From a virus: 38,414 nucleotides of DNA. This document shows positions 18,473-31,776 of this stretch, piece after piece. Each line of letters begins with the position of its first letter. Position 1 is the stretch's first letter. The stretch spans positions 1 to 38,414 of IMG/VR virus record IMGVR_UViG_3300042922_000811; one strand, 5' to 3'. The translations under genes and the position numbers were made by a program. Under the pieces are notes generated by a model. That model made no database searches and was not told the origin of the DNA. It was given only the letters and a program-made list of their open reading frames with translations.

Positions 18473-19693
18473 TTAGGCGGTCTTGCTCTTCAGGATGCGC
18501 AGGGCCTCGGGGCGCACGACGTCGCCGCCGACGCGCTTGCGGAACTTGAAGCCGACCATGCCCTCTTCGGCGTACAGCTCGTTCAGACGCTGCACGGTGA
18601 TGCCGAGACGGTCGTACACGCGGTAGCCGCGGGCGAAGTCGCCGAACGCCGCCAGGCTCTTACCGGCGGCGATGCCGTCGATGCTGTCCTGGTTGTGCAG
18701 GGCGTAGCCGAGGAACGTGTTCGGGCGGCCCGCCTGGACGGACGACTGCCAGAGGTACTGGCCGTTCGCGTCCTTCAGGGTGGAGATGAACAGCTCGGTC
18801 GTCGACGGCAGCAGGAACGACCCGTTGGTGCGGTACTGCGCCGGCACCGCGTAGATCAGGCCCTTGAGGTCGTCGAGGATCTGGTTCCGTGCGTTGGCGC
18901 CCGTGTTGCCCGAGTAGTCGGTCGCGCCCGACGTGACGACGGGGACGCCGCCGGCGGTCGAGAACACGCCGACGGGCTTGTTCTGCGTGTGGCCGGTGCC
19001 GAGGGTGAACGCGATGTCTTCGGCGTCGGCTGCGGCGCGCGCGAAGCTGTCGCGCACGAACGCTTCGAGGTTGACGTCGGAGTCGTCGAGCTCGTCCTCA
19101 CCGATCTTGGCGAGACCGTAGAGATCCTCGATGTACGTCCACTCCTGGTCGGGGGTGTCGGGCATCGAGTCGGTGAGCGTCTGCTGCTTCGTCTCGAGCT
19201 TGCCCCATCCGACGGACACCTCGTCGAGCGAGCGGCGGCGCACGCGGTTCGTGGTGACGTTGCGCTGACCGGCGAGCGGGCGCATGACGCTGATGCGGGG
19301 AACCTCGCGGATGATCTCGGTCTCGAGGTCTTCCGGGACGAGGATCTCGCCTGCGGCGTTCTCGACGAGGGCGCGCTGCTCGGGCGCGAGCGAGGCGCCG
19401 CGGATGAACCGGAGGAACGCCGAGCGTCGCTCGGGGTTGCCCGCGGCGTCGCCGCCGGGGGTGCCGGCTCCGGTGCCGCGGATTTCCTGCGCGTCGGCGG
19501 CGGCGCGCTGCTCGGCGGCCTCCTGGCGTTCGATGCGCTCGCTGAGGTCGCGGAACTCGGTCTCGCCGCGGTCGTAGCTGGTGCGCTCGTCCGCGTTGAG
19601 GTTGCGGTTCTGCGCCTCGGCGGCGTCGGTGATCGCTCGCATCGCTTCGACGGTGCGAGCACGCTCCTGACGGAGCTGAACAGAGGTGGGCAT
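18473..19693 (-). CDS. major capsid protein, HK97 fold
   Basis: A 406-aa protein. Residues about 1-110 form a charged helical delta/scaffold domain with coiled-coil pattern (LSERIERQEAAEQRAAADAQ). The rest is the HK97-fold capsid: ISVMRPLAGQRNVTTNRV, GLAKIGEDELDDSDVNLEAF, DFARGYRVYDRLGITVQRL and a C-terminal FKFRKRVGGDVVRPEAL. The N-terminal region is probably removed by the protease encoded just upstream, as in HK97. ATG 19693 lies 7 bases from AAAGGAG; GTG 19699 in frame is too close to it. Confidence 0.93.
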   Translation of the reverse strand: MPTSVQLRQERARTVEAMRAITDAAEAQNRNLNADERTSYDRGETEFRDLSERIERQEAAEQRAAADAQEIRGTGAGTPGGDAAGNPERRSAFLRFIRGASLAPEQRALVENAAGEILVPEDLETEIIREVPRISVMRPLAGQRNVTTNRVRRRSLDEVSVGWGKLETKQQTLTDSMPDTPDQEWTYIEDLYGLAKIGEDELDDSDVNLEAFVRDSFARAAADAEDIAFTLGTGHTQNKPVGVFSTAGGVPVVTSGATDYSGNTGANARNQILDDLKGLIYAVPAQYRTNGSFLLPSTTELFISTLKDANGQYLWQSSVQAGRPNTFLGYALHNQDSIDGIAAGKSLAAFGDFARGYRVYDRLGITVQRLNELYAEEGMVGFKFRKRVGGDVVRPEALRILKSKTA

Positions 19694-19756
19694 TCCCACG
19701 CTCCTTTCGTGTGTTGGGTGGTGTCCCGCACCGTGTGGACGGGCACGAGGGGTGGA

Positions 19757-20362
19757 TCAGAGGGAGTGCTGCATCTCGAGCAGTCGAAGGCGGTCCTTCG
19801 CGCGCTGCAGGGGGTAGCCCGCCTCGGCGGCGACGTGCCGCTCGGCGAGCGAGCGCAGCTCGGCGGAGGTCTGCGGGTACGCGGGATACGTCACGACGGA
19901 GACGTCGCCGCCGTCGAAGTCGAATTCGCGCACCTCGTAGAGCGAGCCGCCGGCCCAGCCGCCTGAGACGACCCAGAACCCGAACGACATCTGCGTCATG
20001 TCGCCACGCTCGAGCGAGACGGCCGCATCGCGGGCGTAGCTCACGTCGGCCATGTCGGCGTCGACGAGCACGCCTGCGTCGTCTTCGCTGAGTCGCAGCG
20101 TGCTCGCGCGGGTGCGGGCGAGCAGGCGGTTCGCGTCGTGGTTGATGAGGAATCGCACGTCGGGCTCTGCGGCGAGGGTGCGTGTCGCCGCGCCGGGGCG
20201 GATGACCTCTTGCCATCCGCCGAGGTCGGCCGAGAGCTGGTCGTACACCACCGCTCGCCCGGTGAAGTGCAGACGCTGCTCGGCGTCGTCGGCCGCGCGG
20301 ATCTGAATGTCGGTCAGGGGGAACACGCGCCGCTCGAACGTGCGCAGTTGCGGATCTGGCAT
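19757..20362 (-). CDS. prohead (capsid maturation) protease, HK97 S78/U35 family
   Basis: A 201-aa protein. Catalytic His75 in LINHDANRLLA and Ser126 in MTQMSFGFWVV match the HK97 prohead protease signature. It cleaves the scaffold domain of the capsid protein before DNA packaging. ATG 20362 has AGGAGG upstream; a much longer frame to 21949 is a shadow of the portal gene. Gene order portal-protease-capsid is standard. Confidence 0.92.
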   Translation of the reverse strand: MPDPQLRTFERRVFPLTDIQIRAADDAEQRLHFTGRAVVYDQLSADLGGWQEVIRPGAATRTLAAEPDVRFLINHDANRLLARTRASTLRLSEDDAGVLVDADMADVSYARDAAVSLERGDMTQMSFGFWVVSGGWAGGSLYEVREFDFDGGDVSVVTYPAYPQTSAELRSLAERHVAAEAGYPLQRAKDRLRLLEMQHSL

Positions 20363-20370
20363 CTCGCCTC

Positions 20371-22269
20371 CTAGTAGTCGAAGTCCAGGCCGCAGCGGCA
20401 GGGCACCACAGCCTCGGTCGCGCCCGCGGCTCGATCGCCGGGCCACATGGTGCCGTTGGAGAACGGCTCGCCGATGGGGACGGTTTCGCCCTGCATCGAC
20501 TCGTGATCGCATTCCGCCTCGGTCGCTGCGATCCATCGCTTCGACTCGGCGCCGGTCTGCGTTGCGCCCTCGTATCGGCCGAACGATCCCGATCGGTTGA
20601 CGATGAGCGCGGCGGATGCCGCGGTGCTCGCGAGCACGTCGTCGAACGCCCGGATGAGCGCGCCTCGTTCGTCGCCGCTGGCGGCGATGACGAGGAACGA
20701 TCGCGAGTTGAACGCGCGGGCCTCGGATGCCGCGACCGCAGCGACCCAGTTGGTCGTCGCCTCGGCGCGGAACACTTCGCCGCGCGTCTCCGCCTGGCGG
20801 GTGCCGAACTCGGTAACGACGCCGGTGAGCGTCGGGACGAGCGACTCGGTGAGCAGCTCGTCCCACACGGTGCGCTCGTCGTCGCTGGGAATGGCGACGA
20901 GTTGGTCTCGGAGGTCGCGGACGTACTCGGCGAGCACGGCGTCGACGCGGGTGACCCACGCGGGCGCGTCGTCCGCGGCCGCGCGACGCCTCGGTGTCAG
21001 CGCCCGGAACGATGCCGGCAGGAGCTGCGGGACGTCGACCGTCCCACCGCTCGAGCGCTGCACGGGTGCGGAGCCGGCGGGAATCATGTTGACCGGCTCG
21101 AGGTAGACGTCGCCGCCCTCGATGGGCGCGTCGTCCTCGTCGGCGCGAATGTCGTTCGCGGAGAGGTAGCCCCACTGTCGGCCGGCTGCGTATGCCGCGG
21201 TCTGGGCTGCGGTGTCGCCGCGCATGCGCCCCTTGGGGTTGAACTTCAGCCGCATCTCGGGGTCGTCGAACAGTTGCTGCGTGACCTTCTCGAGCCGGGT
21301 GATCGGGGGCAGGAGCGCGTCCTGCACGAACTCGATGCCGAGGTGCTCGACGTTGGAGAACGTGGCCCGGTCGAGGTCGCCGATCTTGTGCGGCGGGACG
21401 CCGTACATCGACGCGATCTTGCCCTCGGTCAGCTTGTAGATCGCGAGGAACTGCGCGTCGGCGGGTGAGAGTGAGACGCGCTCGATCTTGGCGCCGCCCT
21501 CGAAGATCGCCATCTGGTGCGAGTTGCCGACGCCCTGGTGCCGATCCTCGAGCTGCTGCACGAGGCGGTTGTACTGCGCGTCGGTGAGGTTCTTCTCGAG
21601 GGTGAGCACGGTCTCGGGGGTCGCGTCGCGCTCGAAGAATCCGCCGATGTACGACGTCGCCGCGACGGAGATTCCGACCTGCTGTCGCGCGACGCCGATC
21701 GGCGACAGCCCCTCGGGTCCGGTGCCGAACCACCGGTAGTGCAGCATTTCGAACGGGGCCGCGACGTAGCCGGGCTGCACCGGCAGCCAGGTTTCGGACA
21801 TGTCGTGGCTGAGCTTGTAGAACAGCTCGCCGGTGGTCTTGTTGCGCAGGATCTTGACGTCGGTCGGCGGCACGGGCCAGAGCCCGACGATCTCGCCGGC
21901 GCCGTTTCGGCTGACGTAGACGTACGCGTTCCCGCGGATGAGCATCCACGTCACGACGACGCGCCAGAATTCGGCGGCGTCCATGTCGCTGTTCGGTCGC
22001 ACGGTCAGCAGCCGCACGAGCTCGTCGTACTTCGCCGCGGGTCGGATGCGGTCGCGCCCGCGGCGGACGATGACCGACACCGGCAGCGAGGCGATGGCCT
22101 CGCTCACGAGGCGAACTGACGTGAGTACGGCCATGACCTGCAGCGACTGCTCGGGCGTGACGTGCACACCCGCGGAGGTGCCACTGCCGCGCAGCGACGG
22201 CAGCCGCGTCGACGCGCGCGTCACGAGCGAGCGGAACGCGCTCGCGACGCGTTGGGTGAAGCTAGCCAC
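20371..22269 (-). CDS. portal protein fused to a MuF-like C-terminal domain
   Basis: A 632-aa protein. Residues about 30-400 are an HK97-type portal (LTSVRLVSEAIASLPVSVIV, then KNLTDAQYNRL, EGKIASMYGVPPHKIGDLDR). Residues about 430-632 resemble the Mu gpF minor head protein: a helical region and a C-terminal block with ESMQGETVPIGEPFSNG, then MWPGDRAAGATEAVVPCRC. Portal is normally about 400-450 aa and MuF a separate gene, so this is a fusion. The portal forms the DNA entry ring; MuF proteins are internal head proteins. ATG 22269 overlaps the large terminase stop. Confidence 0.88.
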   Translation of the reverse strand: MASFTQRVASAFRSLVTRASTRLPSLRGSGTSAGVHVTPEQSLQVMAVLTSVRLVSEAIASLPVSVIVRRGRDRIRPAAKYDELVRLLTVRPNSDMDAAEFWRVVVTWMLIRGNAYVYVSRNGAGEIVGLWPVPPTDVKILRNKTTGELFYKLSHDMSETWLPVQPGYVAAPFEMLHYRWFGTGPEGLSPIGVARQQVGISVAATSYIGGFFERDATPETVLTLEKNLTDAQYNRLVQQLEDRHQGVGNSHQMAIFEGGAKIERVSLSPADAQFLAIYKLTEGKIASMYGVPPHKIGDLDRATFSNVEHLGIEFVQDALLPPITRLEKVTQQLFDDPEMRLKFNPKGRMRGDTAAQTAAYAAGRQWGYLSANDIRADEDDAPIEGGDVYLEPVNMIPAGSAPVQRSSGGTVDVPQLLPASFRALTPRRRAAADDAPAWVTRVDAVLAEYVRDLRDQLVAIPSDDERTVWDELLTESLVPTLTGVVTEFGTRQAETRGEVFRAEATTNWVAAVAASEARAFNSRSFLVIAASGDERGALIRAFDDVLASTAASAALIVNRSGSFGRYEGATQTGAESKRWIAATEAECDHESMQGETVPIGEPFSNGTMWPGDRAAGATEAVVPCRCGLDFDY

Positions 22270-23815
22270 GGGGCCTCCTCGGGATGGTGCGGATGCCGGG
22301 CACGGCTTCTTCGGGCGGGTTCTTCAGCAGCCAGTAGGCGCCGGCTACGGCCCACAGCGGGGAGGCGTCACCGGGCGAATTCCTCGCGTCGATGACGTAT
22401 CCACCGCCGAGGGCTTTCATCACGGCGTTGCCGGCGGGCACGTCGAGCACGGGCTGCGAACGGTGGAAGATCCGGCCGAGGTTGACGCCGTCGAGGATCA
22501 GACCGGTCGCGCGGCCGAGGTCGGGGCCGCCCCACTCGGTTACCTCGATACCGGCGTCCTCGAACTCGCGGACGAGGGACGACACCGCGGCGCCGCGGGT
22601 TTGGAAGGTCACGGCCGCGGGGGTGAACGTGCGCTCGTCGGAGGTCAGCCAGGGCACGAGCCAGTCGGTGCCGGGGCGGCTCGCCATGATGCCGACGTGC
22701 ACGTTCCCGTCGTCGCGGTATGCCGCGAACGCGATGTGCGCCCACGAGCGATCGTGGGACACCTCGACGCACAGATACAGGTCGGCACCGTCACGGCGCT
22801 TCGACAGTCGGTCGAACCCGGCCATCCATCGGCCGGGCTGGAAGGGCCCTCCCGTCGATGAGTCGACGAAGACGTTCCCGACCTCGGAGGCGAACACGGG
22901 TGCGGGGTCCGAAGCCCAGTACGCGTAGAGGTTCTCTTGCGGGAGGTTGTAGTTCATCGAGGGGTTGGAGTACGCCCACGCCTCGGGACCGTCGAGCGGC
23001 ATCCCCGGCGGCGGCGACCACCAGAACAGCCCGATCGTCGTGTCGACGTCGCCCGCCTCGATCGCGTCGATCGCCATCTTGTGCAGGTGCCGTTGCACGA
23101 TCGCTTCCATGTCGCCGGTGTTGGAGGCGGCGAGGAGTTGCGAGCGGCGGCGGGCGGCGGTGGTCTTCGACAGGGCCGACCACGCCTTGAACGTCTTGTG
23201 CTTCAGGATCTCGTCGACGAACACGAGATCGAACGTGAGCCCGCGGCCGCCGTTATCGGCCGAGTCGACCCAGTACCGCTGACCGCCGGTGAGCTCGAAC
23301 CACAGCTCGCCGTTGATGTTGTTCTCTTTGCCGCGCTCGGCCTTCAGCCGCGGGACGGCGTCGATGATCGACTGCGCGTGCTCCCACGTTTTCTTGGCGG
23401 TGGCGAGCTTCTGCGCGACGCCGATGATCTGGGCGTCGCCGTCGACGAACATGCGGAACAGGATCAGCAGCGCCGCGATGAAGGTCTTTCCGTTCTGGCG
23501 CGCGACCCACAGCAGCACCGTCTTGAAACGGTAGGAGCCATCGGGGTTCAGCTCGAGCGCGTGGACGAGGAACCACCGCTGCCAGGGGTTGAGCTTGGGA
23601 GCGAGCTCCGCGTGCCGGGTGCCGGCGAGCTCGAGGTGTAGGAACATCGCGAAGTGAATCGCGGCGTAGCCGGCGCTCGTCTGCGGGGTGAGCTTGCGGC
23701 GCGGCGGGGTGTACACGCGCGGCACGGTGTGCCCGAAGACACGCCGTGGCCGCGCGCTACGCCTTCCGTCGGGTTTGGCGGGGCTGCGTCGCTTCCGGGT
23801 CGTCGTCGATGTCAT
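22262..23815 (-). CDS. terL: terminase large subunit
   Basis: A 517-aa motor. The ATPase domain has Walker A WVARQNGKT (GKT near 109-111), Walker B DLVFVDE (about 196-202) and a coupling motif LLAASNTGD. A C-terminal RNase H-like nuclease domain carries acidic residues (VEVSHDRSWAHIAFAAY, then GGPDLGRATGLILDGV). It packages DNA and cuts the concatemer. Start ATG 23815 has GGGGAG 7 bases upstream; the frame open to 23860 has no SD. It overlaps the small subunit gene by 59 bases. Confidence 0.95.
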   Translation of the reverse strand: MTSTTTRKRRSPAKPDGRRSARPRRVFGHTVPRVYTPPRRKLTPQTSAGYAAIHFAMFLHLELAGTRHAELAPKLNPWQRWFLVHALELNPDGSYRFKTVLLWVARQNGKTFIAALLILFRMFVDGDAQIIGVAQKLATAKKTWEHAQSIIDAVPRLKAERGKENNINGELWFELTGGQRYWVDSADNGGRGLTFDLVFVDEILKHKTFKAWSALSKTTAARRRSQLLAASNTGDMEAIVQRHLHKMAIDAIEAGDVDTTIGLFWWSPPPGMPLDGPEAWAYSNPSMNYNLPQENLYAYWASDPAPVFASEVGNVFVDSSTGGPFQPGRWMAGFDRLSKRRDGADLYLCVEVSHDRSWAHIAFAAYRDDGNVHVGIMASRPGTDWLVPWLTSDERTFTPAAVTFQTRGAAVSSLVREFEDAGIEVTEWGGPDLGRATGLILDGVNLGRIFHRSQPVLDVPAGNAVMKALGGGYVIDARNSPGDASPLWAVAGAYWLLKNPPEEAVPGIRTIPRRPRG

Positions 23816-24242
23816 CCACGCTCCCCGTGTAGAACTTGAACCGGAGATCATCGAGGGCATCGCGCTCGCGCGGCTTCGCGGCTGCGACGAGGGCCTCGAG
23901 CTGAACGGCGTACCGGTCAGCCAGACTCGCTCGCTGCGGCACGGCGCCGGGCGAGTCGAGGTCGAGGGCCAGGCGGAGCACGAGGGGGATGCGCCAACGC
24001 GCCGACGCGGGCACCTCGAGAGAGGCGATGACCTCGCGGGCTGCCGACACGATGGTCAGGTCGGGGTGCTCGGACTCGGCGCCTGTCCCCTCGGGTGTCC
24101 CACCTTGTGTCCCACCCGATGTCCCACTTCCAGGTCCGATCTGCGGGAGCGCCTCGAGCTTCGGCGCGGCGCGCTTTTGCGCACGCTGTCGGGCCTTTCG
24201 CTCGCGCTCACGCTTGCGGCGCTCCTCATCGCTCAGAGGCAT
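23757..24242 (-). CDS. terminase small subunit
   Basis: A 161-aa protein. A highly basic N-terminal helix (SDEERRKRERERKARQRAQK) is followed by a Gly/Thr-rich linker and a helical domain (about 75-140). It lies directly before the large subunit. Small subunits recognise the packaging site and load the motor. ATG 24242 follows GGAGG with 7 bases between; a longer frame to 24365 lacks an SD. Confidence 0.78.
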   Translation of the reverse strand: MPLSDEERRKRERERKARQRAQKRAAPKLEALPQIGPGSGTSGGTQGGTPEGTGAESEHPDLTIVSAAREVIASLEVPASARWRIPLVLRLALDLDSPGAVPQRASLADRYAVQLEALVAAAKPRERDALDDLRFKFYTGSVDDIDDDPEATQPRQTRRKA

Positions 24243-24319
24243 GGGGCCACCTCCGAGCGGTGGGACAGTGGGACAGGGGCGGGCGGAGGGGGACAGATCA
24301 AACCCGGTGGACTTCGGAG

Positions 24320-24356
24320 CCCCTACCGCTAGGGATCTGACCCCCCTACCCCTAGG
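24320..24356. repeat. paired CCTA-N4-TAGG dyads in the terS/HEPN intergenic region
   Basis: Two 14-bp copies, CCCCTACCGCTAGG (24320-24333) and CCCCTACCCCTAGG (24343-24356), differ at one base and lie 23 bases apart, about two helical turns. Each contains CCTA-N4-TAGG. They sit between the divergent small terminase gene and the plus-strand HEPN-like gene. They could be an operator, a small-terminase/cos recognition element, or part of a late promoter. Confidence 0.55.
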
Positions 24357-24388
24357 AGGGAGCATGACGCGTCAGTACGCTGAGCGCC

Positions 24389-24976
24389 ATGCCCGACACG
24401 CTGCAGACCTTCGACTCCGACGGAGACGACATCCCTCTGATGTTGGCCCGGAGCTGGGCCGACGCGACATTCGAAATGCTCGAGCTCTCGAGGAAGAGAC
24501 GGAGCGACTATCGCTCGATAAGCCGGACGTACGACCGCATGGACGGGGACGCCGTCGACCTCGCCATGCTGCACCGCGCCATCCGCGAGGTATGGAGCAC
24601 CGACTGCCTACTCATTCTCAGCGCGTCCAACCTCGAAGCATGGATACGAAAGCTGTACCGAGCCCGGCGTCGCAAGCTGCCGGAACCGCTCAAGCACCTC
24701 AAGCAATTACGCAATGCGATCGAGCATCTAGACGATGCCAACATCGACGAGGAGACGTGGACAGCAACCGCCCGTCTTCAGCAGTCGAAGAAGAGCGGTA
24801 TCGGCGCACTCCCGAACCAGGAACTCGCGATCGGAATCAGCGGCGACGGATTGCTGTTCGGCATCCTCTCGCACGACGACCTCGAGGGACTCGTGAGGGG
24901 ATTGCTGAGCGAGCTCTCGCAAGAGCTCGACGACTATGCGCAGGACTGGTGGGAGTTTGTGAACTCCGGTCGCTGA
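24389..24976 (+). CDS. HEPN-like protein (single-gene moron, possible RNase effector)
   Basis: A 195-aa mostly helical protein. Residues about 55-120 include the string LKHLKQLRNAIEHLDDANID, where Arg108-N-A-I-E-His113 is an Rx4H motif as in HEPN ribonucleases and HEPN-type RNA-binding domains. A second part (about 125-195) ends in an acidic helix. No partner toxin or antitoxin gene is adjacent. GC is lower than in the late genes (33 of 60 bases in one line I counted). It is transcribed opposite the late operon and converges with the LysM gene. The ATG at 24389 has a weak SD. Confidence 0.7.
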   Translation: MPDTLQTFDSDGDDIPLMLARSWADATFEMLELSRKRRSDYRSISRTYDRMDGDAVDLAMLHRAIREVWSTDCLLILSASNLEAWIRKLYRARRRKLPEPLKHLKQLRNAIEHLDDANIDEETWTATARLQQSKKSGIGALPNQELAIGISGDGLLFGILSHDDLEGLVRGLLSELSQELDDYAQDWWEFVNSGR

Positions 24977-24980
24977 CCGC

Positions 24981-25256
24981 TTAGCGCAGACGCAGTTCCA
25001 TACCGGGCCAGATCAGTTCGGGACGCTTGATCGCGTTCACCCGCTGCAGCTCGGCCGGCGTGGTCTTCAGCTTCTCGGCGATCTTCTCGAGCGTCTCGCC
25101 ATTGGCGACGGTGTGCGTCGGCTCGGGCTCGGGAGCACCCTCGGGACGCTCGGAGCCCGGGGGCGGCGCCTGCTTGGCCGTGGCGGTCTTCGGAGCCGCC
25201 GTCGACGCGGCGGGGGCCTGGTCGGCGGTGGCGGTCTGCTTCGTGCTCTCGGACAT
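24981..25256 (-). CDS. LysM-domain protein
   Basis: A 91-aa protein. The first 46 residues are an Ala/Thr/Pro-rich linker. Residues about 47-91 form one LysM domain (HTVANGETLEKIAEKLKTTP, ending WPGMELRLR), which binds peptidoglycan GlcNAc chains. No signal peptide or catalytic domain. ATG 25256 follows GAGGAG. It lies between HNH and terminase genes in the late operon, so it may be a virion component or head decoration displaying a wall-binding tag. Alternatively it assists lysis. The role is uncertain. Confidence 0.72.
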   Translation of the reverse strand: MSESTKQTATADQAPAASTAAPKTATAKQAPPPGSERPEGAPEPEPTHTVANGETLEKIAEKLKTTPAELQRVNAIKRPELIWPGMELRLR

Positions 25257-25275
25257 CTCGTGTCTCCTCACTCGG

Positions 25276-25572
25276 TTACCAGACCTCGGACGGATCGCCG
25301 AGGCCGGGGCGCGCGTCTCCGCTGCCCTTGTTCTCGTTGCACAGGCGATGGCTCGGCTGCCCGTTCGTCGGGTCGTCGGCCAGCTCGGGATAGGTCTTCG
25401 TCGACTTGATGTGGTCGTACTCGAATGCCTGCGGGTCGCGGTAGTGCAGCGTCGTGTCGATCGCCTGGCCGCAGATCGCGCAGGGCAGATTGTGCTCGGC
25501 CGTCAGCTTTTTGAGTGCGGCGCGATTCGCGCGGTGCGCGGCCGTCGAGCGTCCCGGGATGCCAGCGGCCAT
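25276..25572 (-). CDS. HNH endonuclease (terminase-associated)
   Basis: A 98-aa protein. CAIC (Cys31, Cys34), YDHI (Asp53, His54) and HRLCNENKG (His75, Cys78) form an HNH metal/zinc module. HNH proteins encoded beside the terminase genes in HK97-like phages aid DNA packaging by nicking near cos. ATG 25572 is used. It is the upstream-most gene of the packaging group, before LysM and terS. Confidence 0.88.
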   Translation of the reverse strand: MAAGIPGRSTAAHRANRAALKKLTAEHNLPCAICGQAIDTTLHYRDPQAFEYDHIKSTKTYPELADDPTNGQPSHRLCNENKGSGDARPGLGDPSEVW

Positions 25573-25681
25573 TGCTTAGAACCTGTCTCATAGGGGGCGA
25601 GCAACGGCGTGTCGTCGGTAGCGCAATGTCGCATCCCCCTGGTTTCCTGTGACCACGAAACGAAGAGAGGAGGTGAGAATC

Positions 25682-25921
25682 ATGGCGAACAACAACGACC
25701 GGCACGTCGTGCCGAACCCGAACGGCGGCTGGGATGTCGTGAAGCCGGACGCGCAGCGCGCGTCCTCGCACCACGACACTCAGGCTGAGGCCATCAACCG
25801 CGGGCGCGACATCGTCGGCAACGCGGGCGGTGGCGAGCTGAACATCCACGGTCGCGACGGGGCCATCCGAGCGAAGGACACGATCGCGCCGGGCAACGAT
25901 CCGCGCAACATTCCGGGCTGA
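25682..25921 (+). CDS. DUF2188-like small protein (moron)
   Basis: A 79-aa polar protein (start MANNNDRHVVPNPNGGWDVV, then KPDAQRASSHHDTQAEAINR) with the DUF2188 pattern: a WDVVKPDAQRAS strand-turn, then a helix with AEAINRGRDIV, then GGELNIHGRDGAIR. It has a strong SD (GGAGG, 9 bases) and its own terminator downstream. It is transcribed against the surrounding operon, between HNH and the accessory island. Family function is unknown. Confidence 0.82.
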   Translation: MANNNDRHVVPNPNGGWDVVKPDAQRASSHHDTQAEAINRGRDIVGNAGGGELNIHGRDGAIRAKDTIAPGNDPRNIPG

Positions 25922-25940
25922 GCGAGTCGGCAACGTTAGC

Positions 25941-25981
25941 GGCAGGGCACCCAGGCGCATCGCGCAACCGGGTGCCCTGCC
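25941..25981 (+). terminator. terminator of the DUF2188 gene
   Basis: Perfect 12-bp stem GGCAGGGCACCC (25941-25952) / GGGTGCCCTGCC (25970-25981), followed by TTTCAC. It lies 20 bases after the gene's stop. Confidence 0.8.
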
Positions 25982-26352
25982 CTTTCACATCTGCGCCTCA
26001 CACACCCCGCGAGCGCTCCCTATGCAAGAGGATCAGCGCACCTCGACTCCACCGATCGTCGGTGGCCGGGCGCCGTCATGCTGGAATTGCGAGCGTCGTG
26101 GACGAGTGAGACGAGATTCCCAGCCGGGCACAGGCAGGGAAAGATCGAAGAAGGGGCGCCGACAACCGGTGGCGCACAGCACCGAACCGCGCATCCGACC
26201 CGACGACGAGGTCTTGCCGGCACGACGCCCCCGAGAACGACGAAAGCCCCGCCGAATCGGCAGGGCTTCAGTCATAGTTCTCGTGCAGGGCACAGCCTAT
26301 CACGAGAAGCGGACACGCTGGACACGCTCATCAGATATCCGTCCTCTGCGAT
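25982..26352. other. non-coding gap between DUF2188 gene and accessory island
   Basis: About 370 bases with no frame of convincing composition on either strand. It contains the island terminator (26244-26268) and otherwise nothing I can identify. Base composition shifts to more AT-rich past about 26270, where the island's genes begin. Confidence 0.5.
26244..26268 (-). terminator. terminator of the three-gene accessory operon
   Basis: Stem AAGCCC (26244-26249) / GGGCTT (26263-26268) plus inner GCCG/CGGC with one mismatch, tetraloop-like end. On the minus strand it is followed by TCGTCGTT. It lies about 85 bases after the metallo-beta-lactamase gene stop. Confidence 0.7.
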
Positions 26353-27462
26353 TCAGCTGAGCTCGTACGCGGGAGCCGCCAGTCGCACCCGCCACGTCGT
26401 CTCATTCATCCGCATACGCGCCTGTACCTGCCCAACCGAGCCGTCTCGCTCGCGGATGTTGGTGGCGACTGACTGCAACATTGCGCGCGTTGCCTTGACC
26501 TCCCGAGGCGTCGCGGGTCTCTGCGGTCTGGCAGTGATGAAAGCGCTCCCCGAGGCTTCGACGATACGGTCGATGTCCCGTTGCTTAGGTACTGTGCGCT
26601 CGACTCCGAGACGAAAAGGCGTCATCACCGCCAGTACGTCGCTTTCCAGCAGATCGTTCCACACAGGATCCCAATGGGATTTTTCGGAGCCGTGGTGCGG
26701 CACCTTAATGAGACGCGCTCGGTTTACGGGAGCATGAGTCTCGTGCACGCGACGCCAGCCGCACGCGGTGGGCCCGTTTAGAAGATCTCCTCCGAGCAAG
26801 AGAGCGATGTCTCCCACCTCAACCCACAGCGCGACCGTGTACTCGTTGGGGTCTGGCGCTGCGAGCCGTCTACGTGAGTCTTCTCGAGCAGCGCCCTCCG
26901 CGATTGTTCGTATCGAACGGTTTTGGGCCTCATCCGAAGGCGAAAGAGCTATCACCCTGAAGCCAGGTGTCGACCCCAAAGCCTCAACGCTCAGGAGAAC
27001 CTTCTGTTCGGTCGCCCGCAGGAGGTGCGGTGCCCCGGTTCGTCCCCGGCGGCGAACCTCGTCCAAAACGGTCTTGTACTCGTGACGAACAGACGGGACG
27101 AGCTGGTCTTCGATGCTGACATCCGCCGCAACCGCCGCGAAGAACTCTGAGCTAGTGAATGCCGCCGAGGTGACGAACTTCGCGGACTTCGCGGCTAGGA
27201 AAATGTCGCCGACGCCCGCGGTGTGATCGTCGTGAGCATGGGTCGCCACCACCAGCTTGACCTGTGTGGCTACATCGACGTTCAACCGCTCGAGATACTC
27301 GAGTGCGGGGTGAGCGCCCTCGCGTTCGTCAAAGCACGAGTCAACCGTGATCCACTGACCGCCGCCGACGTGGACGACGATTGCTTCACCGCGACCAGGC
27401 CCAAATATCGAGACCTCGATCTCGTCGGCTGCTGGAGGTGACGCATCAATACCGACTGGCAA
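26353..27462 (-). CDS. metallo-beta-lactamase-fold hydrolase (ComEC C-terminal-like), accessory operon
   Basis: A 369-aa enzyme. Zn-binding THAHDDH (His75, His77, Asp79, His80), the later metal Asp in LLLGGDLLNG (Asp226) and PHHGS (255-259) are all present, so it looks catalytically intact. The order and PHHGS box match MBL proteins related to the ComEC C-terminal domain, a group that includes nucleases and phosphodiesterases. Substrate unknown: DNA, RNA or a nucleotide signal are all possible. Start TTG 27462 lies 3 bases after the upstream stop; no nearby ATG. Third gene of the low-GC operon. Confidence 0.82.
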   Translation of the reverse strand: MPVGIDASPPAADEIEVSIFGPGRGEAIVVHVGGGQWITVDSCFDEREGAHPALEYLERLNVDVATQVKLVVATHAHDDHTAGVGDIFLAAKSAKFVTSAAFTSSEFFAAVAADVSIEDQLVPSVRHEYKTVLDEVRRRGRTGAPHLLRATEQKVLLSVEALGSTPGFRVIALSPSDEAQNRSIRTIAEGAAREDSRRRLAAPDPNEYTVALWVEVGDIALLLGGDLLNGPTACGWRRVHETHAPVNRARLIKVPHHGSEKSHWDPVWNDLLESDVLAVMTPFRLGVERTVPKQRDIDRIVEASGSAFITARPQRPATPREVKATRAMLQSVATNIRERDGSVGQVQARMRMNETTWRVRLAAPAYELS

Positions 27463-27465
27463 AGT

Positions 27466-28050
27466 TCAATCCATGAGCTCTTCGAGGTCAGCAAGCATCT
27501 TCTCGCCTTCCGCCCTAAAGTAAGCGACGTCTGTCCGCGACCACTTTCCAAGACGCCTCAGGCGAACCGCGCTGGTTTGGCGCGGCAAACCCCCATCTAC
27601 CGGCCGAACCGACCGTTTAGTTACGTAGATGACATCGCCTAGACCGATGTCATCCGTCCCTGCTCCCACATCTGATTTCAGGAAGTCGGCCAGCACGGCG
27701 TTGCCCGGCGTGTGTTGGTCCGGCACAAGCTCAGCAGTGAACATGTCCCCATCGAGATCGACGACCCTGCCTGTCCACGTCAACAAGCCCGACACACGGA
27801 ACTCGTTGGGCGCAACACGACGACCGGACTTCGTTGTCGTCGTTGCGCCCGACGGGTTGCCCGGTCGAACGGTTGCGGAGTCAACCGACGGATTTGGGAC
27901 AGTCGCATTTTGGACTCGCGCCGCCGCAGACTTACTCGAAAACTTGGAAGGTGTAACTGTCTGAGCGGACGACTCCGAGGCCGTATCCCGTGAAGTAGGT
28001 GGGGCGTTCCGACCCGGCGCAGCTGTCGGCGAGAGCATAGCTAAGCTCAC
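27466..28050 (-). CDS. uncharacterised protein with beta-rich C-terminal domain, accessory operon
   Basis: A 194-aa protein. Residues about 1-80 are Ser/Thr/Pro/Ala-rich and probably disordered. Residues about 82-175 form a beta-rich domain (FRVSGLLTWTGRVVDLDGDM, then FTAELVPDQHTPGNAVLADF and SAVRLRRLGKWS) suggestive of an OB or SH3-like barrel. I recall similar WxGxVxxxDGDxFTA proteins of unknown function in bacteria. GTG 28050 overlaps the previous stop (GTGA) and has GAGGGAG 7 bases upstream. It lies between its two partners, so a complex is likely. No catalytic residues are recognised. Confidence 0.75.
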   Translation of the reverse strand: MSLAMLSPTAAPGRNAPPTSRDTASESSAQTVTPSKFSSKSAAARVQNATVPNPSVDSATVRPGNPSGATTTTKSGRRVAPNEFRVSGLLTWTGRVVDLDGDMFTAELVPDQHTPGNAVLADFLKSDVGAGTDDIGLGDVIYVTKRSVRPVDGGLPRQTSAVRLRRLGKWSRTDVAYFRAEGEKMLADLEELMD

Positions 28051-28799
28051 TGGTTTTCTCCCTCAGCAAGTGAACTGATCTTGCGCGTGATGGCGAGCCA
28101 GTTGTCGGCGGCATACTGCCACCGATCGGACAGGATCTGGATAGCGGCCAGACGCTTGTCACTGGTCGGTTCCATCCCAGCTTCGCCGTAAGAATATGCG
28201 TCATCGCGGGATGAAGGCAACGCGTCCCGGGTGTTCAGATCAAAATGCTCATTTACGGATATGTAGACGCCTGGCTGGACGATCATCGACGGTTCCACGC
28301 GAACGTTCGTTTGGCCCGACCAGGTGTCCATCCGCGCACCCCACATCACGACCGAACGCATACCCGCGAATTCCAGTACGTCTTCCCATAGCTGCTTCGG
28401 AGCAATGGCGTCGCCCACGCGGTGCAAGGCATCGGGCGATGCATAACGGGTGTGCATGTCACGGTTGATACCCAGGGCATTAGCTGGATAGCCCTCCAGT
28501 GTACGGAGAACGCCGATGGCTGCATCCCTAAGCCGCTGCACCTCCTCGACCGCCGTGGTCTGCAGCTGTATGTGATCCTGGGACGCAGTCACCTCGAGCC
28601 AGGCCACTCGGAACGTCGTGTTGTCAGGCGAGATGATCGTGATCTCCGAGTCCTCAAGTTCATCTGCTCCGATGAGCTCTGCCTCGCGAAACCAGGCAGG
28701 CGTGAACAGCACGGGATTGAAAACGCCCCGCACTACGATGCTGACGCCCTCCAGCGTGACGGGCAGTCCCTGGTCCGACGCGATGCTCTCCAGTGGCAT
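28047..28799 (-). CDS. uncharacterised 250-aa protein, first gene of accessory operon
   Basis: A protein of about 250 aa (253 if GTG 28808 is used). The opening beta segment VRGVFNPVLFTPAWFREAEL is followed by a central NALGINRDMHTRY block and a late RVEPSMIVQPGVYISVNEHF block, ending in a helix (AADNWLAITRKISSLAEG). I recall a bacterial family with FNPxxFxPAWF and GIN motifs, but know no function. No membrane or nuclease motif. Its stop overlaps the next gene (GTGA). Adjacent to a hydrolase it could be a sensor or adaptor. Clear lower GC than flanks (34 of 60 bases in a counted line). Confidence 0.72.
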   Translation of the reverse strand: MPLESIASDQGLPVTLEGVSIVVRGVFNPVLFTPAWFREAELIGADELEDSEITIISPDNTTFRVAWLEVTASQDHIQLQTTAVEEVQRLRDAAIGVLRTLEGYPANALGINRDMHTRYASPDALHRVGDAIAPKQLWEDVLEFAGMRSVVMWGARMDTWSGQTNVRVEPSMIVQPGVYISVNEHFDLNTRDALPSSRDDAYSYGEAGMEPTSDKRLAAIQILSDRWQYAADNWLAITRKISSLAEGENQ

Positions 28800-28877
28800 G
28801 AAGCTCACTATGCCACGTGACCCAACTCGGCGCCGAAGATTACATCGGCAACGAACTGTTGCCCTGCCCCTCGCGAG

Positions 28878-29054
28878 TCATCGCCCCCTGCGCCGACCGC
28901 GGCGCGCGCGCATTCGCTTCTCAGTCTCGATGAGCTCCGCTTCGCTATGAAGGCCGTATCGTTCCTGCAGCTCCCCCGCGGCGACCCAGCGGCGAATCGT
29001 GCGATCCGAAACGCCGGCGCGTTTCGCGGCCTGCGCCTGCGTCAGCCACCGCAT
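28878..29054 (-). CDS. small helix-turn-helix protein (MerR/excisionase-like)
   Basis: A 58-aa protein starting at ATG 29054, overlapping the zinc-finger gene by 13 bases. [20 protein letters not shown] is a classical HTH, followed by a basic C-terminal tail. It looks like a HTH_17/terminase-small or excisionase-type DNA-binding module. It ends the early operon, just before the accessory island, so it could control early-to-late switching. That role is inference. Confidence 0.72.
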   Translation of the reverse strand: MRWLTQAQAAKRAGVSDRTIRRWVAAGELQERYGLHSEAELIETEKRMRARRGRRRGR

Positions 29055-30028
29055 ACGCAGCCCCCGTTCACCGCTCTCTGCGTGAAGCACTCCGGGCACA
29101 CCGCCGACGGCGGGAGCTGAGGCGCGAGCGGTGGGAGCGGCTTCAGCACGACGATCGGGCGCACCGCGGGCGGCACAGCCGCGACGGGTGCAGTCGGCAC
29201 GACGGGGGCGCGCACGACTCCGCCCGGTGCGTCGGCATCCGGGATGAGCTCGGCGAACGCCTCAGCCCAGAACCCGTCGTCGACGCGATCGTCGGACTCC
29301 CAGTCGCACGTCGTGCACCGGTACGACGCCGCGTCGCCCTTCCGGCGAGGCGGGCGCACGCGCACCGTCTTGCAGTCGCACTCGGGGCACGGGTTCTTCG
29401 CCCAGCGGGGCTGATCGTCGAGCGGCCATTTCGACAGCGCGTCGACGACCGACCACCACTCGGGGTCGCCGACGTGACGGTGCACGACGGCGTCGAAGAG
29501 GTCGCGGATCTCGACCCGGTTCGCGAGCGTGTCGAAGTCGGCGAGGATCGCCTGCAGGCAGAGGTCAGCGTCGTCGAATGCCTCGGCCGTCTCGACGCCA
29601 GCGGCGAGGCCGCGGCGCCCGGCGAGACCTTCGTCAACGACGACCGCCCAGTCGCGCAGCATCCGCATGAGATCCTGCGACGCGTCGATGAGATCCGCGG
29701 GCACCGGCGCCGGCAGTTCAGGACGCGACGACGACACCATGACGCGGTCATACACGGCCGCCTTGAGCGGGTCCGCCTGCGAGCGGAGGTGGGCGATCAG
29801 GTCGGCCGTGTCGCCGAGCAGGCGACGCAGCCGCCGGTAGCAGCCCTCGCACAGCATGACGCCCTCGCGAGCGACGCGAGGCGCGCAACCGCCACACGGC
29901 CGCACACCCTGCTTGAGCAGCTCCTCGGCGCGCTCTGAGCCCTCGTCGACCATGAACCAGGGGCACTGAGCGAAGTGCACATCGGGGACCGTGCACCCGC
30001 GGATGCAGCCCTCAGAACGGAGTGTCAT
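29042..30028 (-). CDS. multi-zinc-ribbon protein of the early operon
   Basis: A 328-aa protein with several CxxC pairs: CGGC/CEGC near the N-terminus (about 46-68), CPEC and CTTC in a ribbon (about 215-245), and a C-terminal CPEC/CVCG. The middle is helical with Asp/Glu. This pattern recurs as a hypothetical protein in actinophage early regions. ATG 30028 is preferred because GGGGGAG lies 8 bases upstream; ATG 30034 is too close. It overlaps the SSB gene end. Confidence 0.78.
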
Positions 30029-30491
30029 CGCCATAGCTCCCCCCAGAAGTCCATGCCTGCTCGTTCGACGACGGCGTCGCCCACTGCTCGGCCGTCGGCG
30101 GCTGCGCCTGACGCGGAGCGCCGGTGCTCGCGGCGCGGGTCACCTGCGCCGTTGCGTAGCGGAGCGAGGGGCCAATCTCATCGACCTCGAGCTCGATCAA
30201 CGTGCGGTTGTTGCCCTCTCGGTCCTGGTAACTGCGTTGCTTCAGACGGCCGGTCGCGACGACGCGGGCGCCCTTCGACAGCGACCCCGCGACGTGCTCC
30301 GCGAAGTCGCGCCAGACCGACGCGCGGAGGAACAGCGGCTCGCCGTCCTTCCATTCGTTCGCCTGGCGGTCGAAGGTGCGCGGCGTCGATGCGATCGTGA
30401 AGTTCGCGACCGGGAGGCCGTTCTGTGTATAGCGCAGCTCGGGGTCGGCGGTCAGGTTGCCGACGACGGTGATGACGGTCTCTCCGGTCAC
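30012..30491 (-). CDS. ssb: single-stranded DNA-binding protein
   Basis: A 159-aa protein. An OB-fold (about 1-110) opens with [20 protein letters not shown], a signature of bacterial SSB. A low-complexity linker leads to an acidic tip ending DDTPF, the partner-binding tail that contacts replication and repair enzymes. GTG 30491 overlaps the previous stop as GTGA and has AAGGA upstream. It works with the phage replication and recombination proteins encoded just upstream. Confidence 0.93.
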
Positions 30492-30850
30492 TTCGATTCC
30501 TTCTGGCGGAGGTTCCGCCGGTAGTAGCTCACGGTCTTGAGGTGGCATCCGACGACGGCCGCGATCTCGGGGCCCGTGCGCCCGTCGGCCAACATGCGTC
30601 GGAGGGTGTCCTGTTGCTCCTGCGTCAGCGGCCGGCGCGACTGATACTCGGCTGCTGTGCGCTCGGGCATGACGGCTCGGGCCGGATCACCCTTCGCGGT
30701 GGCGCCGAGCCGGCTCTCGATGAGGTCGGGCACGGTCACCCGGCGGCTCGATGCCTGCGTCGCCCGTTTCGCCGTCGCCTCGAGCACGCGAAACGTCGCC
30801 GCGTCGAGGTGGATCGTCACAGGGATCAGGTACTCAGAACGGTTCGTCAT
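30488..30850 (-). CDS. helix-turn-helix protein, early operon
   Basis: A 120-aa basic protein. A ribbon-helix-helix-like N-terminal part ([20 protein letters not shown]) and a C-terminal HTH resembling Hin/resolvase recombinase HTH ([20 protein letters not shown], then [19 protein letters not shown]). It may bind phage DNA in replication or regulate early genes. It overlaps the next downstream SSB (GTGA) and the upstream replication gene. Confidence 0.75.
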
Positions 30851-31451
30851 CGTCGTGCACCTCCGCGGGGCGCTGCCGGGCGGCGATCTGTTCGTCGTCC
30901 CAGACCTTGCGCTGTAGTCGTGCTCTGCCGCATCCCCTGCAGGGTTCGTCTGTTCCCCCGGTGGAGCGGTGGGCGTGGCAGAAGGGCGAGGGCGGCGAGG
31001 TCGTGTCGCGAGGGGATCGTGCGGGACCGCTCTCGCTCTCGCTCTCCCTCTCTCCCTCTCTCTCGCTCTCCCTCTCCCTCGCCACGAATGGATCGCGAGC
31101 CATTCGCGAATCGTTCGCGAGGGGCGGCGCCGGGAACCGGGACGGCTTCGCTCGGTCGACCGTCGGCCAATCCGTCAGCGCGAAGAACGTCGACCCGTCC
31201 ACATCGAAGAGCACGAGGCATCCGGCATCGTCCAGCGACAGCAGGTGCTCGTCGATCGTCCGCTCGGTCATCTCCTCGTCGAGCGGATAGAAGTTCGCCA
31301 GCATGAGGCGCTGGTTCACCTTCTCCCGCCCGTGATCGTCCGCATACAGGCGCAGCGAGATCTCCGTCAGCCGCACCGCCGGCGGCAGGCTCAGCAGCTC
31401 CTCCCGCGAGTACCCCTCGGGCGTCACCGTTCGTCGTCTTGTCATCGCCAT
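30834..31451 (-). CDS. winged-helix replication protein (replisome-organiser-like) with low-complexity insert
   Basis: A 205-aa protein. Residues about 10-105 match winged-helix domains of phage replication or DnaT/replisome-organiser-like proteins (VRLTEISLRLYADDHGREKV then LPLDEEM-type helices and a WPTVDRAKPSRFP end). Residues about 125-145 are a Glu/Ser/Arg repeat coded by CT-rich DNA. A CxxC pair lies near the end (CRGCG). ATG 31451 or 31445 is the start. A longer open frame to 31748 is shadow. It overlaps in another frame with 30847-31776. Confidence 0.75.
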   Translation of the reverse strand: MAMTRRRTVTPEGYSREELLSLPPAVRLTEISLRLYADDHGREKVNQRLMLANFYPLDEEMTERTIDEHLLSLDDAGCLVLFDVDGSTFFALTDWPTVDRAKPSRFPAPPLANDSRMARDPFVARERESEREGERESESESGPARSPRDTTSPPSPFCHAHRSTGGTDEPCRGCGRARLQRKVWDDEQIAARQRPAEVHDDDEPF

Positions 31452-31776
31452 AGCGGGCGATCCCCTCGTAGATCTGGTCGATCGCGTCCGCGAGATCCGC
31501 GGGGGCGACCGTGAAGCACTCCGTGAAGCCCCGGCCGCGCGGGAGGAGGTGCTCGGAATCGGCGGCGCGCTCGAACGCCGGCGGGAAGTGCTCGTCGAGC
31601 TGCGCGAGCGCGCACAGCTCCCAGCGGGTCGGGACGTCCCGCATGAGGAACACGACCTCGCCGCCGGTGGCGCACAGCTCGCGATAGCGCGACGAGCGCC
31701 AGCAGCGGCCGACTTTGAGCACGCCCTCGGCGGCCCAGTAGACCGCATAGACCGTCGTCCGGTCGGGGCGCATCAT
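30847..31776 (-). CDS. GIY-YIG/T5orf172-like protein, frame running on into the next gene
   Basis: Residues 1-about 110 (VYAVYWAAEGVLKVGRCWRS, then ALAQLDEHFPPAFERAADSE) resemble a GIY-YIG or T5orf172-type domain with VY-VYW and KVGR boxes. ATG 31776 overlaps the previous stop (ATGA). No in-frame stop occurs until 30847, so the formal 309-aa frame overlaps the replication gene for about 200 codons with Arg/Gly-rich out-of-frame sequence. The real gene may end near 31442-31451; a 1-base shift would reach TGA 31444-31442. Either a lost stop or true overlap. Confidence 0.55.
   Translation of the reverse strand: MMRPDRTTVYAVYWAAEGVLKVGRCWRSSRYRELCATGGEVVFLMRDVPTRWELCALAQLDEHFPPAFERAADSEHLLPRGRGFTECFTVAPADLADAIDQIYEGIARYGDDKTTNGDARGVLAGGAAEPAAGGAADGDLAAPVCGRSRAGEGEPAPHAGELLSARRGDDRADDRRAPAVAGRCRMPRALRCGRVDVLRADGLADGRPSEAVPVPGAAPRERFANGSRSIRGEGEGERERGREGERERERSRTIPSRHDLAALALLPRPPLHRGNRRTLQGMRQSTTTAQGLGRRTDRRPAAPRGGARR
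31030..31083. repeat. CT-rich hexanucleotide tandem repeat inside the replication gene
   Basis: A run built from CTCTCG/CTCTCC/CTCTCT units. On the minus strand it codes for the Arg-Glu-Ser-Glu-Arg-Glu-Gly-Glu-Arg-Glu-Ser tract of the 30834-31451 protein. Units of 6 bases can be gained or lost without a frameshift; odd changes would break the frame. Confidence 0.8.

Follow-up and report, generated by a model that had tools for sequence, protein, structure and literature searches.

The A-B-C operon and its surroundings

The window, which is the whole 38,414-nt stretch of viral DNA analysed here (IMG/VR record IMGVR_UViG_3300042922_000811), carries a three-gene operon, termed A-B-C (Table 1). 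The genes are as tightly packed as the original prediction had described them. The length of 250 aa given there for the first protein applies from the alternative ATG, and the GTG start adds three residues. The GC content of the operon is 60.7% compared with 68.2% in the rest of the window, in agreement with the low GC claimed earlier, and the trough is limited to ~26.0–29.0 kb. Matches to PHROGs place phage replication-initiation, SSB and MerR/excisionase-like genes upstream and HNH and LysM/endolysin-like genes downstream. Portal- and capsid-like genes, which match E. coli prophage proteins, lie farther downstream, so that the proposed position at the boundary between the early and late modules was confirmed. 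The host of the phage is of Microbacterium type, as Microbacterium phages share ~80–84% identity with it in the SSB region.

A single terminator had been proposed for the operon. A T-run scan found no T-run terminator, and the candidate downstream of C is a strong GC-rich hairpin lacking a T-run. This hairpin is common to a sister phage and lies outside the cassette defined below, which assigns it to the phage backbone. Thus, the predicted structure exists, but it is neither a T-run terminator nor part of the cassette. A small protein of PHROG 3220 (function unknown) is encoded near the operon (25649–25921, plus strand). A relative of this protein, 61% identical over 70 residues (L005:5917-6126), neighbors the operon of Jiangella muralis, although differently arranged, and this may be a coincidence.

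Table 1. Features of the A-B-C locus (window coordinates).
Feature	Position	Strand	Description
Gene A	28047..28808	-	GTG start, 253 aa; alternative ATG at 28799 gives 250 aa
Gene B	27466..28050	-	194 aa; 4-base overlap with A
Gene C	26353..27462	-	TTG start, 369 aa; 3 bases after B; ComEC/Rec2-type MBL-fold hydrolase (predicted)
GC-rich hairpin, possible terminator, downstream of C	26242..26268	-	Inside a 76-nt fold (-44 kcal/mol, z=-5.5); without T-run
Swappable cassette	26331..28886		2556 bp, GC 60.6%; from comparison with sister phage

A-B-C is an exchangeable cargo cassette

Comparison with the sister phage IMGVR_UViG_2731957895 (L052) defines the ends of the cassette. The two phages are 96.5% identical over window positions 18810–26330 and 94% identical over 28887–31749. 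Exactly in place of A-B-C, the sister phage carries 1310 bp (L052 10149–11458) with two genes, encoding proteins of 280 and 138 aa. Repeats at the two ends of the cassette, whether tandem or direct, are weak and do not exceed chance level. The alternative cargo of L052 has a GC content of 61% against 69%, and the N-terminus of its 280-aa protein, which is partnered by the 138-aa protein, is glycine-rich and membrane-like; this cargo is possibly another defence module.

A second exchange site was observed in E. coli, in which the operon sits between the antiterminator Q and the holin, on the strand opposite to the late genes. In E. coli ECO20, A-B-C is replaced in the Q-holin slot, with clean junctions, by a different two-gene cargo (L050:8165-9728) that encodes proteins of 343 and 179 aa. 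The 343-aa protein has only a very weak PtuA-like match (E=0.018). Toxin genes occupy the Q-holin slot in certain strains. The operon moves as a block into the slot between the early/antitermination and the lysis/packaging genes. Because of the sister-phage swap at one site and the replaceable Q-holin slot, we regard A-B-C as a mobile prophage cargo cassette, and the accessory nature that had been proposed for the operon is upheld. The GC content of the operon is 3–18 points under that of its flanks in nearly all loci.

The three genes are inherited together across phyla

The original prediction proposed a test, namely whether the three genes co-occur in other genomes, and they do. A search of bacterial genomes with C only yielded 10 loci, and A and B lie directly upstream in all nine actinobacterial ones; at the remaining locus C is matched weakly (E=5e-6), and A and B are missing. 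The full trio is present on both plasmids that were found, those of Adhaeribacter (Bacteroidota) and Pantoea (Gammaproteobacteria). Scanning of viral contigs with a narrow MBL alignment returned 0 loci. The broadened alignment returned 27, all of them with A and B upstream and the gene order kept. The trio is also present in E. coli prophages: one version covering the whole query was found in 14 complete E. coli genomes, with divergent versions in three more records among the matches listed. The operon is rare: among 396 Actinomycetota genomes it was detected in a single one, on which the search itself was centred. No protein match to C, B, the Pantoea MBL or the MBL of locus L013 was found in GenBank phage records; all relatives of the operon came from IMG/VR, plasmids and genomes.

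Across 33 distinct copies with a median C identity of 30%, the copy-to-copy distances of A, B and C correlate strongly with one another (r=0.90, 0.91 and 0.93), and none of 5000 permutations gave values as high. By this measure A, B and C form one co-inherited unit. The nearest homologue of the operon is found in Microbacterium sp. T32, the C protein of which is 81% identical. The DNA similarity to T32 is confined to window positions 26360–28781, and the phage flanks are absent; by eye, nrdEF-like and nucleoside-hydrolase-like genes neighbor the T32 operon. The comparison of the window with T32 gives a pN of 0.14 (A), 0.23 (B) and 0.13 (C) with pS of 0.73–0.78, and these substitution rates place all three genes under purifying selection.

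Proximity to known defence genes was the other point that the original prediction had asked about. By eye, no clear defence genes lie beside the chromosomal copies, and the neighbors are housekeeping genes such as nrdEF, yajQ and rlmN, named by eye from their translations. Streptomyces and Kitasatospora copies (L007 and L010) share a neighborhood downstream of C (by eye, a GntR-like regulator, an HD domain, NUDIX and XRE), which suggests insertion into the same region of the chromosome. The strongest new evidence is the exact cargo swap combined with the occurrence of the operon in Actinomycetota, Bacteroidota and Pseudomonadota.

Protein C is a ComEC-type MBL hydrolase

C is barely over the cut-off of Pfam Lactamase_B and matches PHROG 28593 (function unknown) with E=8e-28. 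The closest solved relatives are the MBL domains of ComEC (9ic4, E=6e-11; 30bt, E=2e-8). The metal residues that had been noted in the sequence (HAHDDH, D226 and PHHGS) are present and are invariant among relatives: H75, H77, D79, H80, D226 and H256/H257 (window numbering), which correspond to HxHxDH, the Asp of LLxxD and the His of HHGS, are kept in 37 of 37 copies. Residues D41-S42-C43, E128, N206, G235-W236 and K253 are likewise invariant in these copies. Together with the ComEC match, the motifs assign C to the metal-intact ComEC-type MBL hydrolases. This agrees with the nucleic-acid-type activity suggested earlier, as far as the closest solved relatives can predict it. The original prediction would have failed had C proved to be the orthologue of a housekeeping enzyme, which it is not. 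The PADLOC profiles LmuA and RTasMBL match C weakly in all 14 members scanned, and weak matches were also obtained to the Avs1a and 6A-MBL defence MBLs.

These profiles bear on two other explanations of the operon. In the first, C is an Apyc1-like cyclic-nucleotide hydrolase that shields the carrier phage from CBASS/Pycsar-type immunity; an Apyc1-like enzyme had been named as an alternative in the original prediction. The phage location and the MBL fold fit such a role, and Apyc1 is likewise a phage MBL-fold enzyme. However, the profile of C is far nearer to ComEC than to Apyc1, for which the match is E=0.23. Apyc1 acts alone, whereas C is encoded in a three-gene unit and its close relatives were never seen without A and B. 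Furthermore, the coliphage copies are opposite in strand to the lytic genes, like cargo expressed in the lysogen. An anti-defence function is therefore quite improbable.

In the second explanation, the operon is a metabolic or DNA-processing accessory, e.g. for competence-like processing or the hydrolysis of modified nucleotides, and has no immune role. ComEC is indeed the closest characterised relative of C, but C does not have a transport domain. The exchangeable slot, the sporadic cross-phylum spread on mobile elements and the low GC are typical of defence cargo instead, and we give this explanation little credence.

Structural features of A and B

No family for A was found in the Pfam, NCBIfam and PADLOC scans made. 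AlphaFold predicts a confident α/β fold (pLDDT 88), and the fold search with this model gave no PDB match with a TM above ~0.35. One viral match, A0A515MGR4, was obtained (TM 0.55/0.66). The best PDB fold matches are to AdoMetDC/prozyme, but at TM≤0.30 they are not interpretable. A suspected relationship to TIGR04255 was rejected after no NCBIfam match appeared in 15 members even at E≤10.

For the window B protein, scans of Pfam, NCBIfam and PADLOC gave no family, PADLOC likewise gave none for 10 members, and scattered single weak matches are all that was seen elsewhere. None of the curated families searched holds A or B, in line with the earlier remark that the first two proteins lack a recognised function. 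In the AlphaFold model of B, ~80 disordered N-terminal residues precede a small β-barrel of five strands, and a helix forms the C-terminus; pLDDT is 75–94 from residue 81. Most of the top fold matches are to OB/S1-type nucleic-acid-binding domains, and they are weak (best E=6.5e-3, low TM), so the predicted barrel may be described, with caution, as OB-like.

A candidate anti-phage module

An identical E. coli A protein, WP_000143147.1 (L046:12260-12976), bears two RefSeq product names. It is a 'hypothetical protein' in NZ_CP151045 and NZ_CP156034 and an 'anti-phage protein' in NZ_CM149554 and NZ_CP104526. The origin of the second label was not found by a literature search with the accession, nor in Vassallo 2022 or Rousset 2022, and it is absent from the main text of DefensePredictor. 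The label, a name rather than a test, suggests that an activity was reported by somebody; it supports an anti-phage reading and at the same time limits its novelty.

We conclude that A-B-C is probably a self-contained anti-phage module that serves temperate phages as exchangeable cargo and also occurs on plasmids and in lone chromosomal cassettes. Such a module would most likely guard the host cell, along with the virus residing in it, against other viruses. The prediction of a prophage-borne defence system is partly supported: the accessory cargo, the obligate trio, the nucleic-acid-type MBL and the probable anti-phage role are retained, and the Apyc1-like alternative is not.

A toxin-antitoxin-like or superinfection-exclusion module, in which A and B act as antidotes or regulators that hold an MBL toxin, would serve mainly to maintain the carrier and would protect against phages as a by-product. 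The compact overlapping genes with the enzyme last and the occurrence on phages, on plasmids and as lone cassettes are compatible with this explanation. So is the decayed copy of Curtobacterium sp. Leaf261, in which only the MBL frame was lost, with an in-frame TAG (L004:8139-8141) and with A and B open. On the other hand, it needs two conserved partners of ~200–250 aa rather than one small antitoxin, an addiction module is superfluous for carriers that are integrated phages, and the RefSeq label points elsewhere. We consider it unlikely, although less so than the two explanations discussed for C.

Beyond the obligate association of A, B and C and the assignment of C to the ComEC-type hydrolases with intact metal residues, we infer all steps of the anti-phage model. 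ComEC-like MBL proteins serve as DNase effectors in Hachiman, AVAST and the three-gene Canu system (PMC12799240). C would similarly be a DNase-type effector, which A and B would restrain. A would detect infection, and the OB-like barrel of B would bind nucleic acid or couple C to A. On infection, A and B, the latter via its OB-like domain, would release C. Activated C may then degrade DNA and so halt the incoming phage; the cell would probably be sacrificed, as in Hachiman, AVAST and Canu.

More tentatively, A-B-C could be a cross-phylum immune module of new architecture, located in a conserved cargo slot of temperate phages, in which a ComEC-type nuclease (C) is gated not by proteolysis but by a sensor of new fold (A) and an OB-fold adaptor (B); we regard this fuller proposal as possible rather than probable. 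No description of the trio was found in the literature searched. A prophage-borne module with an MBL effector is of a kind already known, and MBL nucleases are emerging as common effectors of bacterial immunity. If true, the proposal would place an MBL effector under two proteins of nameless families in place of a protease, with a range of three phyla or more and a defined cargo slot in phages. Through its E. coli copies the module can be tested directly in laboratory strains, and the slot is a practical address for finding more cargo systems.

Comparison with known MBL systems

C shares the HxHxDH motif, the N motif, LLxxD and KVPHHGS with the MBL domain of ComEC/Rec2. It differs from this domain in the absence of the transmembrane channel and the final HP motif, in a segment from HxHxDH to the N motif that is longer by ~50 residues, in the invariant DSC, E128 and GW positions, and in its obligate partners A and B. 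Like the 6A-MBL system (NF058524), the operon encodes an MBL enzyme (E down to 8e-8), but no ubiquitin-type partners were recognised beside C, and the scores of 22.6–31.8 bits are far below the NCBIfam cut-off of 220. The scores for Avs1a of AVAST type 1 are likewise far below the cut-off (15.5–20.7 bits against 420).

There is a likeness in kind to Hachiman (HamM), AVAST (Avs1), Lamassu, DRT and Canu (CanC). As in these systems, C is a predicted ComEC-like MBL effector in a multigene operon and, compared with ComEC, has additional sequence close to the active site. In contrast, A-B-C has no recognised trypsin-like or caspase protease, helicase, STAND or RT partner, and its partners belong to nameless families. 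Neither A nor B matches a protease family, and no protease is among the PDB matches listed for the A model, which sets the operon apart from the protease-paired MBL systems. In Canu, a protease opens a gated pro-nuclease (PMC12799240). Since no protease was recognised in A-B-C, the release of C would not use the known proteolytic cut. C resembles the gated MBL nucleases in kind and in its extra sequence, yet has no recognised protease partner, and we therefore propose that A and B themselves hold C inactive.
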